A model generated the notes under the pieces. The model ran no database searches and was not told the DNA's origin. It worked only from the letters and a program-made list of their open reading frames with translations. Shown here one piece after another: positions 39,274 to 45,166 of a stretch of DNA of 63,208 nt. Made by a program: the position numbers and the translations under genes. Origin of the DNA: Alphaproteobacteria bacterium (GTDB taxonomy: Bacteria > Pseudomonadota > Alphaproteobacteria > Micavibrionales > Micavibrionaceae). Where the stretch lies: positions 39,155 through 102,362 of the forward strand of contig JAACQG010000006.1 of NCBI GenBank assembly GCA_009995045.1. The letters are read 5' to 3'. The number at the start of each line of letters is the position of its first letter. The first letter of the stretch is position 1.

Positions 39274-39936
39274 ATGCTCAAGACATTCATGTTAACACTC
39301 AGCAGCCTGCTCCTCATCTCATCAGCAAACGCTGCATCCCCCGCTGATACGCTCTTGTTAGAACTCTCATCCGGCGGAACAGCCACAATCGAATTGCTCC
39401 CCGACCGCGCACCAGAACATGTTGAGCGCGTAAAAGAGCTTACACGCGAAGGCTTCTACGACGGTATCATTTTCCACCGCGTGATTGATGGCTTCATGGC
39501 ACAAACTGGCGACCCAACCGGAACAGGTATGGGCGGATCAGACAAACCCGACCTTAAAGACTCTTTCACCAACTACGTATACAAACGTGGAACAGTTGGC
39601 GCAGCGTCATCAGGACCAAACACAGCAAACTCACAATTCTTTATCTGCTTTAACGATAATGGCTGTCGTGATTTAACAGGTAAATATACCGTATGGGGAC
39701 AAGTTATCGACGGCATGGAATATGTTGATGCGATCAAAAAAGGCGTTCCCGCGAAAAACCCCGATAAAATCGTAAAGGCAACAATTCTTGCTGACACACT
39801 CAAAGCTGAAACACCTGCAAAAGTAGAAGCGCCCGCAGAAAAAGAATCAGCACAAGACGCCGTTGAAGAAACCCAAGCCCCTGAAGCACCTTCTGAAAAA
39901 ATGGAAGAAGAAACAGCGCCAGTGGCAAACCACTAA
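39274..39936 (+). CDS. Exported cyclophilin-type peptidyl-prolyl isomerase
   Basis: A 220-residue protein with a signal peptide (MLKTFMLTLSSLLLISSANA) and a bacterial cyclophilin domain: FYDGIIFHRVIDGFMAQTGD, GTGMGGSD, TANSQFFICF and YTVWGQVIDGMEYVDAI. The catalytic FHRVIDGFMAQ is intact. The C-terminal 45 residues are acidic, Glu/Pro/Ala-rich and probably unstructured. AAAGGAAA precedes the ATG. A close paralogue follows 24 bases later. Confidence 0.95.
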   Translation: MLKTFMLTLSSLLLISSANAASPADTLLLELSSGGTATIELLPDRAPEHVERVKELTREGFYDGIIFHRVIDGFMAQTGDPTGTGMGGSDKPDLKDSFTNYVYKRGTVGAASSGPNTANSQFFICFNDNGCRDLTGKYTVWGQVIDGMEYVDAIKKGVPAKNPDKIVKATILADTLKAETPAKVEAPAEKESAQDAVEETQAPEAPSEKMEEETAPVANH

Positions 39937-39960
39937 TATAAAAACAAAAAGGATAACCCC

Positions 39961-40482
39961 ATGACAACTTCTAATGACGCAGCCAGCCCTGCGGACACAA
40001 TGCACATCGAATTATCGACTGGTGGCACCATCACAATTGAAATGCTACCCGATCGTGCCCCGGGCCACGTTGAACGCATCAAAGAATTAACACGCGAAGG
40101 CTTTTACGATGGCATCGTATTCCACCGTGTGATTGATGGCTTCATGGCACAAACTGGTGACCCGACTGGAACTGGCATGGGGGGATCTGACAAACCTGAC
40201 CTAAAGGCAGAATTTTCGGATTACGAATATAAACGCGGTACAATCGGCATGGCACGCACTGCCGCCCCCGATAGCGCAAATTCACAATTCTTCATCGCCT
40301 TCAGTGATGAAGGCTGCAGCTTCCTAACGGGTCAATATACCGTATGGGGACAAGTGACAGAAGGCATGGAACATGTGGATGCAATCGCCCTTGGCGAACC
40401 ACCTGCAAATCCTGATAAAATTGTGAAAGCAACTATTGCGTCTGACTCACAAGAAGAACAAGAAAGCGAAGCCGCTGAATAA
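39961..40482 (+). CDS. Cyclophilin-type peptidyl-prolyl isomerase (cytoplasmic)
   Basis: A 173-residue paralogue of the preceding gene with the same FHRVIDGFMAQTGD, GTGMGGSD and NSQFFIAF motifs but no signal peptide. Its N-terminus, MTTSNDAASPADTMHIEL, keeps the AASPADT that directly follows the signal peptide of the first copy. This suggests duplication of the exported gene with loss of the signal. It is probably cytoplasmic and co-transcribed with its partner. Confidence 0.94.
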   Translation: MTTSNDAASPADTMHIELSTGGTITIEMLPDRAPGHVERIKELTREGFYDGIVFHRVIDGFMAQTGDPTGTGMGGSDKPDLKAEFSDYEYKRGTIGMARTAAPDSANSQFFIAFSDEGCSFLTGQYTVWGQVTEGMEHVDAIALGEPPANPDKIVKATIASDSQEEQESEAAE

Positions 40483-43478: not shown

Positions 43479-43796
43479 TTATTTTTTGATCTGATCGCGG
43501 AAGATTTTTTCAGCCGGAACAGGTTCAACCGCTGGCGCAGCCTCAGACTTCGTAAGAGCCTCTCTGACCGCTGGCTTCCAATCACGCTCAACATTTTTCA
43601 CAACAGGCGCAGTTTCAAGCTTAAGCTCTTTAACCGGCATCATCTTCGCCAAAACATATGCCACGCCGCTACCCGCAGTACGTTGATTACCATAAGGGAA
43701 CATAGTATTTGTTTTCACAAATTCATACCCATCACCACAACCAGCAAGTAAAAATACAGAAGAAGCAGAAAGAATAATCGCGCGTTTAAGTGCCAT
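43479..43796 (-). CDS. Putative lipoprotein
   Basis: A 105-residue protein with a lipobox: SVFLLAGCGDGYEF, Cys at residue 20 of MALKRAIILS.... The mature part is short, Lys/Glu/Pro-rich, and ends in EKIFRDQIKK. AAAGG lies 7 bases before ATG 43796. No family is recognised. Its upstream region contains two DnaA boxes. Confidence 0.7.
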   Translation of the reverse strand: MALKRAIILSASSVFLLAGCGDGYEFVKTNTMFPYGNQRTAGSGVAYVLAKMMPVKELKLETAPVVKNVERDWKPAVREALTKSEAAPAVEPVPAEKIFRDQIKK

Positions 43797-43845
43797 GACA
43801 GGACCTTTAATAGAATGAATAATTATATGTGAAAAAACGCAGTGC

Positions 43846-43877
43846 TTATGCACAAACAATACACACAATTATCCACA
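43846..43877 (+). promoter_or_regulatory. DnaA box pair, left cluster
   Basis: Two perfect DnaA boxes (TTATNCACA): TTATGCACA at 43846-43854 and TTATCCACA at 43869-43877, both in plus orientation, 14 bases apart. An AT-rich tract follows at about 43892-43916. They lie upstream of the lipoprotein gene and at the end of the acetyltransferase gene. See also the inverted boxes on the other side of that gene. Confidence 0.75.
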
Positions 43878-43917
43878 GGCACAAGAGTCCACGAAAATAT
43901 ATTACATTTAAAAAAGA

Positions 43918-44454
43918 TTACGCCTTAACGTGATACAAAACAAAAGAACCCAGCGGATGATCCTTCGGTAAAGTGGGGTATTGAAATTCTCCGCCCTTCA
44001 CCTTTTTCATGCCGATCTTTTCCATCACGCCGATGGATCGCTTATTATCAAAAACAGTAAAGGCAACAATCTCGTCCATGCCGTGATCTTCAAGGCCATG
44101 CTTCAAAACACCAGCCGCCGCTTCACTCGCATATCCCTTACCCCAAAAATCATAATCAAGACGCCACGCAATCTCTATCGCGGGCGTGAACGCAGCCTTA
44201 AACGGCACATCCTGCAATCCTGTTGCGCCCATAAACGCGCCATCTTCTTTACGCTCCAACACATATATGCCATAGCCATTCTTGTCGTAATGCTTGATAA
44301 ATCGATCAACCAGCTTGTTGGAATCTGCCTCCGTCAAAGAACGTGGCAAATACTCCATAATCACCGGATCGGCATTCATCCGCGCAAACGGTGCCCGATC
44401 TTTGTCTTGCCACTCACGAAGGATTATTCTGTCTGTTTCTAATATTTTGCTCAT
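43918..44454 (-). CDS. GNAT acetyltransferase, RimJ/RimL-like
   Basis: A 178-residue protein of the ribosomal-protein N-acetyltransferase type. It opens ILETDRIILREWQDKDRAPF and carries EIAWRLDYDFWGKGYASEAA (about residues 91-110) with the acetyl-CoA motif and VFDNKRSIGVMEKIGMKKV. The substrate is unknown. It is flanked on both sides by DnaA-box clusters. Confidence 0.9.
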   Translation of the reverse strand: MSKILETDRIILREWQDKDRAPFARMNADPVIMEYLPRSLTEADSNKLVDRFIKHYDKNGYGIYVLERKEDGAFMGATGLQDVPFKAAFTPAIEIAWRLDYDFWGKGYASEAAAGVLKHGLEDHGMDEIVAFTVFDNKRSIGVMEKIGMKKVKGGEFQYPTLPKDHPLGSFVLYHVKA

Positions 44455-44516
44455 GGCTAGACGCTAAATGACATTGCCCAAATGACCAAGTGTTATATCG
44501 TATGAATACACGGAAA

Positions 44517-44562
44517 TGTGCATAACATTGCCTATATAAATATGTGGATAAGCTGTGGATAC
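44517..44562 (-). promoter_or_regulatory. DnaA box triplet, right cluster
   Basis: On the plus strand: TGTGCATAA (44517-44525), TGTGGATAA (44543-44551) and TGTGGATAC (44554-44562). These are two perfect boxes and one with a single mismatch, all in minus orientation, opposite to the left cluster. The surrounding bases 44526-44542 are AT-rich. Confidence 0.75.
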
Positions 44563-44620
44563 TTTCCCCCCACATCCCACACTAACCGCACAGCCAAGCA
44601 TTCTCTGTTACCTTACTATA

Positions 44621-45166
44621 ATGAACATCCTAAAAACGCTTACCTTGAGCGCTGTCATAATAACCTCAATAACCACACACGCTTTTGCCAATGAAGGATA
44701 CCCCGTTGGCAATGATATTGAGCGCCTTAAAGCCATTCAAATCAGCACACCAAACGATTTGCAATTGGACTGTAATGAGCTCTCAAGCGAAGCTTACAAA
44801 ATGAAAAAGATCATTCAAACCACGCAAAATATAAAAGATACATCCGACCTAAAAAGCAACGGCGTCACCGCGGCAGGTGCATTAGGATCGCTCATAATCG
44901 GCACCGCAACGGGTGGCATCGGCCTCGCCATTGGTGGCTATTTAATGCATCAAAACATCGAAGAACGCGGCGACAAAGCCGACGACATTCAATATATAGC
45001 TGCTCAACGCCGCACCCTCATGCTCGGCATTCATAACGCAAAAGGATGCTTCGGCCCCACTGAGGATGCCATGCTCCCCCCGACTGAATTCGACCCAATC
45101 GCACAAATCGCACTCAGCGCACTTAACGAAGAGCGACCGAACCATCATAGCGGTTACAATGACTAA
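44621..45166 (+). CDS. Secreted protein with Gly-rich hydrophobic segment
   Basis: A 181-residue protein with a signal peptide (MNILKTLTLSAVIITSITTH, cleavage near AFA). The middle holds a Gly-zipper-like hydrophobic stretch (AAGALGSLIIGTATGGIGLAIGGYLM, about residues 86-111), possibly membrane-inserting. Cys at LDCNELS and GCFGP. The start at 44621 gives the signal peptide; a longer reading from 44555 does not. No family is recognised. Confidence 0.65.
   Translation: MNILKTLTLSAVIITSITTHAFANEGYPVGNDIERLKAIQISTPNDLQLDCNELSSEAYKMKKIIQTTQNIKDTSDLKSNGVTAAGALGSLIIGTATGGIGLAIGGYLMHQNIEERGDKADDIQYIAAQRRTLMLGIHNAKGCFGPTEDAMLPPTEFDPIAQIALSALNEERPNHHSGYND

Follow-up and report, generated by a model that had tools for sequence, protein, structure and literature searches.

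What does a dense cluster of DnaA boxes do in the genome of a Micavibrio-type bacterium, at a place where it surrounds an acetyltransferase gene? The window, a stretch of 63,208 nucleotides on the 231.8-kb contig C29 of a 1.89-Mb assembly in 32 contigs, holds four perfect copies of TTATNCACA and one copy of GTATCCACA within 717 bp (43846-44562), at exactly the positions named in the original prediction, which had offered three readings: a replication origin, a datA-like site that titrates DnaA, or a DnaA-controlled promoter pair. The sites and the genes around them are as follows.

43479..43796, minus strand: gene for a small conserved lipoprotein (lipobox-like LAGC, by eye)
43828-43836, minus strand: one-mismatch site TTTTTCACA, adjoining the left group and absent from the original count
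43846-43854, plus strand: perfect DnaA box TTATGCACA, left group, between the GNAT gene end and the lipoprotein gene start
43869-43877, plus strand: perfect DnaA box TTATCCACA, left group
43918..44454, minus strand: GNAT acetyltransferase gene (PF13302 match; closest solved relative PA3944, E 9e-58)
44517-44525, minus strand: perfect DnaA box TTATGCACA, right group, in the divergent intergenic region
44543-44551, minus strand: perfect DnaA box TTATCCACA, right group
44554-44562, minus strand: one-mismatch box GTATCCACA, right group, close to the position that relatives keep
44621..45166, plus strand: divergent gene for a glycine-rich, secreted-looking protein (signal-peptide-like by eye)

The left boxes lie between two minus-strand genes, 58-81 bp before the lipoprotein start. 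The right boxes occupy the region between the GNAT gene and the divergent gene. They lie 67-104 bp ahead of the divergent ATG (44621) and 71-108 bp ahead of the start of the GNAT gene, with GTATCCACA at 67 bp from the former and 108 bp from the latter. Among 105 family genomes searched, a strong GNAT homologue (E 1e-20) was found in 24, a lipoprotein match in 69 and a match to the divergent gene in 26. No family was assigned to the lipoprotein or the 44621 protein in Pfam or NCBIfam at E 0.001, one of these scans having used longer upstream starts for both proteins. The predicted change in gene direction across the cluster holds only locally: the three genes directly to the left are on the minus strand, but farther out most of the longer ORFs between 35886 and 40482 are on the plus strand. 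At 39274-40482 there are two adjacent, similar genes, which we take from their sequence to encode cyclophilin-type peptidyl-prolyl isomerases and which match the same place in relatives.

The cluster is, as had been proposed, far above chance expectation. The window contains seven perfect sites where 2.17 are expected, and none of 100 shuffles reached seven. Across the whole assembly there are 68 perfect sites compared with 53 for a reversed control pattern, so that the assembly-wide enrichment is slight; among these 68, only here do four fall within 706 bp, an arrangement with a frequency of 5e-5 when 68 sites are placed uniformly. This frequency argues against a chance cluster, or drift in one species, although one-mismatch sites are themselves common in the window (173 matches to TTWTNCACA, 124 expected). 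The AT-rich tracts noted around the boxes are also real: GC content is 0.33-0.34 at 43750-43949, where the left group lies, and 0.37-0.44 near the right group, compared with 0.43-0.54 in 4-kb bins of the window. We found no CtrA site of the form TTAA-N7-TTAA near the cluster; GANTC is present at 43885 and 44321, and a scan of the region for sigma-70-like promoters returned four where 3.6 are expected, no more than chance.

Several DnaA boxes beside AT-rich tracts could mark the chromosomal replication origin, but base skew and gene context speak against this. C exceeds G on both sides of the cluster in the window bins, and each of the 47 5-kb bins along C29 has negative skew (-0.04 to -0.28), in agreement with the original remark that no skew switch is evident. 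Four relatives likewise show no sustained change of sign around the homologous locus, with one of eight bins in L060 departing. The contig of G003 that carries the locus at 127 kb has positive skew at 60, 200 and 350 kb; at the beginning of the contig and from 500 kb onward the skew is close to zero. We looked for a hemE match in this genome and found none.

We read the surroundings of hemE in eight genomes of this family, and in five of them (G002, G007, G017, G028 and G030) the skew switch lies beside the gene. The sign changes within 20 kb around hemE in G002, G007, G017 and G030, some kilobases before the gene in the case of G007. In G028, which is a single contig, seven samples between 0 and 1.2 Mb have positive skew and six between 1.4 and 2.4 Mb have negative skew, with a further sign change at the start of the record, where hemE sits. 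G006 and G016 have no clear flip at hemE. In the genome of the window, hemE is found not on C29 but on C27, a contig that has only 2.66 kb to the left of hemE, is positive in all 10 bins read there and is too short on that side to show a flip. Because skew is negative throughout C29 and hemE is on another contig, the cluster is not oriC; the origin reading is refuted, and we leave it next to no probability. The origin of this genome is likely to be the segment before hemE (L231 about 2308-2538; G000:C27), to judge by its sequence, and its boxes are apparently weak: five one-mismatch sites lie 129-351 bp before the start of the hemE match, with no perfect box from 2.5 kb before to 1.5 kb after that start. 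Because the hemE region holds only one-mismatch boxes, this comparison suggests that a genome may have its origin elsewhere than at its strongest box cluster.

The relatives used for comparison, from a named collection, comprise Micavibrio sp. and further alphaproteobacterial MAGs. We compared 20 Micavibrio-like loci out of 80 retrieved, counting sites within one mismatch. The 200 bp upstream of GNAT contain 18 sites (3.8 expected) and the downstream side 13 (2.6 expected). In a separate count, the gene-free DNA adjoining GNAT has 26 sites where 3.8 are expected, about a 7-fold excess, compared with 18 where 18.6 are expected in the remaining gene-free DNA of the same loci, which is thus not enriched. 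With the window excluded, and with L072 and L074 removed as close to L067, 18 relatives still have 31 sites against an expectation of 6.5; the maximum in 150 shuffles was 14, and none of 399 permuted motifs reached 31. When no motif was preset, the top 6-mer in the same comparison without the window was TCCACA/TGTGGA (19 occurrences, 2.3 expected). Because the enrichment adjoins GNAT only and holds without the window, we conclude that the sites are kept while their flanks diverge.

The cluster is therefore conserved, though unevenly. The original prediction had named a lack of conservation among the grounds for refuting it, and on this point the outcome favors the prediction. At least one site is present in 14 of the 20 relatives, mostly in one-mismatch forms (TTGTCCACA and similar); perfect boxes occur in only two (L063 and L079), five retain a single site, and the positions of the left group are variable. 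Six relatives (L065, L066, L067, L072, L073 and L074) have no site within one mismatch at the locus, as a chance cluster would allow, but the persistence of the enrichment once the window is set aside makes that explanation very improbable. A link between the box and this GNAT in all bacteria was also considered and rejected: 38 distant homologues, drawn from the 60 loci outside the Micavibrio-like 20, have eight sites where 6.1 are expected.

Three other features of these loci were noted. In L079, which belongs to the same genus, the lipoprotein gene is inverted and the divergent region between it and GNAT contains TTATCCACA and three one-mismatch sites, all in one orientation. By eye, an GGGGNNAA element (as GGGGATAAG, GGGGACAA or GGGGGCAA) recurs about 50-75 bp before the GNAT start in L062, L063, L064, L068, L069, L071, L073 and L075. 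Hexamers resembling TATAAG or TATAAT, also found by eye, stop roughly 4-6 bp short of the GNAT ATG in L064, L067, L069, L074 and L075, and their transcripts would therefore be leaderless or have very short leaders, if these hexamers are real.

We then asked which gene the boxes go with. Upstream of the lipoprotein gene there are 19 sites (3.0 expected) in 17 genomes that have GNAT, the window's own three sites included, and seven (4.25 expected) in 13 genomes that lack it, these counts covering 30 loci out of 72 matches. Clear enrichment upstream of this gene is found only where GNAT is present, and a link of the box to the lipoprotein gene alone was rejected. The orthologue of the 44621 gene behaves in the same manner, with 14 sites (3.0 expected) in 15 genomes with GNAT, again including the window, and three (2.4 expected) in 11 genomes without GNAT, where enrichment is weak or absent. 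One of the genomes without GNAT, G032, has TTGTCCACA 58 bp before the divergent gene.

Where the upstream box is kept, its orientation is constant in nine genomes of four genera. Its distance to the ATG of the 44621 orthologue was compiled by hand, with start codons picked by eye among in-frame ATGs in favor of those that precede a signal-peptide-like stretch. Seven genomes (G000, G003, G006, G008, G016, G117 and G118) have a distance of 67-76 bp, and two (G017 and G074) have 91-96 bp. The distance to the GNAT start is 82-108 bp in eight genomes and 148 bp in G008. Measured to the real start codons, the standard deviation is 10.4 for the 44621 orthologue and 19.0 for GNAT, which would tie the box more closely to the former, but this difference rests on G008 and the idea was rejected: without the largest value each standard deviation is 7.7-7.8, so distance singles out neither promoter.

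Of 14 genomes with the head-to-head pair, 9 have a site in the same orientation, compared with none of seven with GNAT only and 1 of 11 with the 44621 gene only. Comparing pair with single-gene genomes gives Fisher p values of 0.007 and 0.012, for tallies made by hand on species that are not independent and with an orientation rule set after looking. G020, whose genes are on different contigs, and G077 and G090, whose GNAT is distant or partial, stand outside these counts. When orientation is ignored, an upstream site is found in three of the seven GNAT-only genomes (L078, L079 and L080) and in 10 of the 14 with the pair, and the link of the box to the pair is therefore weaker than the Fisher value suggests. 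The kept orientation and the similar distances to both starts nevertheless point to control of the divergent pair.

Of the three readings originally proposed, a DnaA-controlled promoter pair is thus the best supported. Conservation is confined to these intergenic regions, and the orientation and distance of the upstream box are kept; the binding itself is predicted from sequence. We consider it about evenly balanced whether the locus is a conserved cis-regulatory region in which DnaA, the most likely binder of the boxes, regulates the divergent pair and perhaps the lipoprotein gene. The right boxes would lie in the shared upstream region of the GNAT gene and the secreted-looking gene at 44621, and the left pair would act before the lipoprotein gene. 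By binding these boxes, DnaA would raise or lower transcription of the pair, as at known DnaA-regulated promoters, and the lipoprotein gene may be controlled likewise. The level or nucleotide state of DnaA would then set transcription and tie these genes to the replication cycle. In Caulobacter and E. coli, DnaA is established as both an activator and a repressor of promoters that carry boxes, according to the available part of PMC8203912; for the present locus we infer DnaA as the binder, the sign of its effect, the promoters that respond and the timing in the cell cycle.

Acetylation of DnaA is known in E. coli (available part of PMC4971506), and at the present locus inward-pointing boxes stand on both sides of a GNAT gene. 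These two facts together raise the idea that DnaA controls the GNAT, which would itself modify DnaA or a target in the envelope, so that replication and acetylation would form a feedback loop in the Micavibrio-type lineage. We regard such a loop as highly speculative and most probably wrong.

The strongest doubt about control by DnaA concerns which protein binds. The element could instead be the operator of another transcription factor, with a DnaA-box-like site of about TTGTCCACA or TCCACA-N6-TGTGGA, of which the perfect boxes in the window are one version. TTGTCCACA is found upstream of GNAT in 4 of the 20 relatives (L070, L071, L076 and L077), and L076 and L077 have the inverted repeat TCCACA-N6-TGTGGA, a usual shape for an operator. 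GGACAA/TTGTCC, the second-ranked 6-mer with the window excluded, fits such a factor, but TTATCC is enriched as well in that comparison (12 occurrences, 3.0 expected), and the four perfect TTATNCACA boxes of the window and TTATCCACA in L079 also speak against it. Taken together, this makes another factor a possibility to be taken seriously, if a distinctly doubtful one. A conserved HTH gene nearby was tried as the owner of the site and rejected: its upstream regions contain no site where 3.0 are expected (nine loci from six genomes, three of them read twice), so it is not obviously the owner. Upstream of the coiled-coil gene there is one site where 3.5 are expected (12 loci), and upstream of a cyclophilin-like gene there are two where 0.5 are expected (three loci).

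A datA-like locus, at which boxes away from oriC titrate or inactivate DnaA and the genes are bystanders, would account for a four-box cluster that is unique among the perfect sites in this assembly. Because the hemE region lacks a perfect box and the cluster is elsewhere, strong sites do lie away from a weak-box origin, as this reading would have it. However, where GNAT is missing, the enrichment before the lipoprotein gene and before the 44621 orthologue is weak or absent, and five of the 20 relatives have a single site only. Minimal datA requires an IHF site, according to the available part of PMC10380432, and the exact IHF consensus WATCAANNNNTTR is absent between 28790 and 47848; two one-mismatch matches fall within 43600-44750, one of them overlapping the boxes. 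We therefore judge a titrating or inactivating locus of this kind, the second of the original readings, to be unlikely, though plain titration keeps some probability.

If DnaA does control these promoters, replication would be linked to genes for envelope or secreted proteins. To judge from the available part of PMC8203912, DnaA as a transcription factor has been worked out for few species and promoters, and a promoter region with kept DnaA-box-like sites offers a testable target in the Micavibrio lineage. Our literature search for Micavibrio together with DnaA returned only work on Bdellovibrio, with one mention each in the text available, and among the titles returned for datA, DARS or the DnaA regulon in alphaproteobacteria none concerned this locus. 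A second DnaA target is possible elsewhere in the same genome, where two perfect TTATCCACA boxes whose starts are 12 bp apart lie in an intergenic region (L053 6328-6348; G000:C9:49327-49347) and precede a 324-aa ORF (L053 5316-6290, minus strand).

Compared with known systems, the cluster shares DnaA-box-like sites in AT-rich DNA with the alphaproteobacterial oriC beside hemE, but the skew switch of the family, where seen, is at hemE and not at the cluster. Like datA of E. coli, it has several DnaA boxes distant from oriC; unlike datA, it has no exact IHF consensus nearby, has a single site in several relatives, and has its sites in upstream regions, where they are weak or absent if GNAT is missing. 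The close group of three boxes at 44517-44562 recalls DARS1 and DARS2. In the DARS core, box I is opposed to boxes II and III, whereas the three boxes of the right group are all on the minus strand, again without an exact IHF consensus. DARS2 has IHF and Fis sites, and the absence of the exact IHF consensus between 28790 and 47848 speaks against a copy of it here as well. With the DnaA-regulated promoters described in the available part of PMC8203912 (dnaA and nrdAB of E. coli; gcrA, ftsZ and podJ of Caulobacter), the cluster has in common upstream boxes in one to several copies. It differs from them in its putative targets, a GNAT, a secreted-looking protein and a lipoprotein, in that binding is predicted, and in that an entire gene lies between its two groups of boxes.
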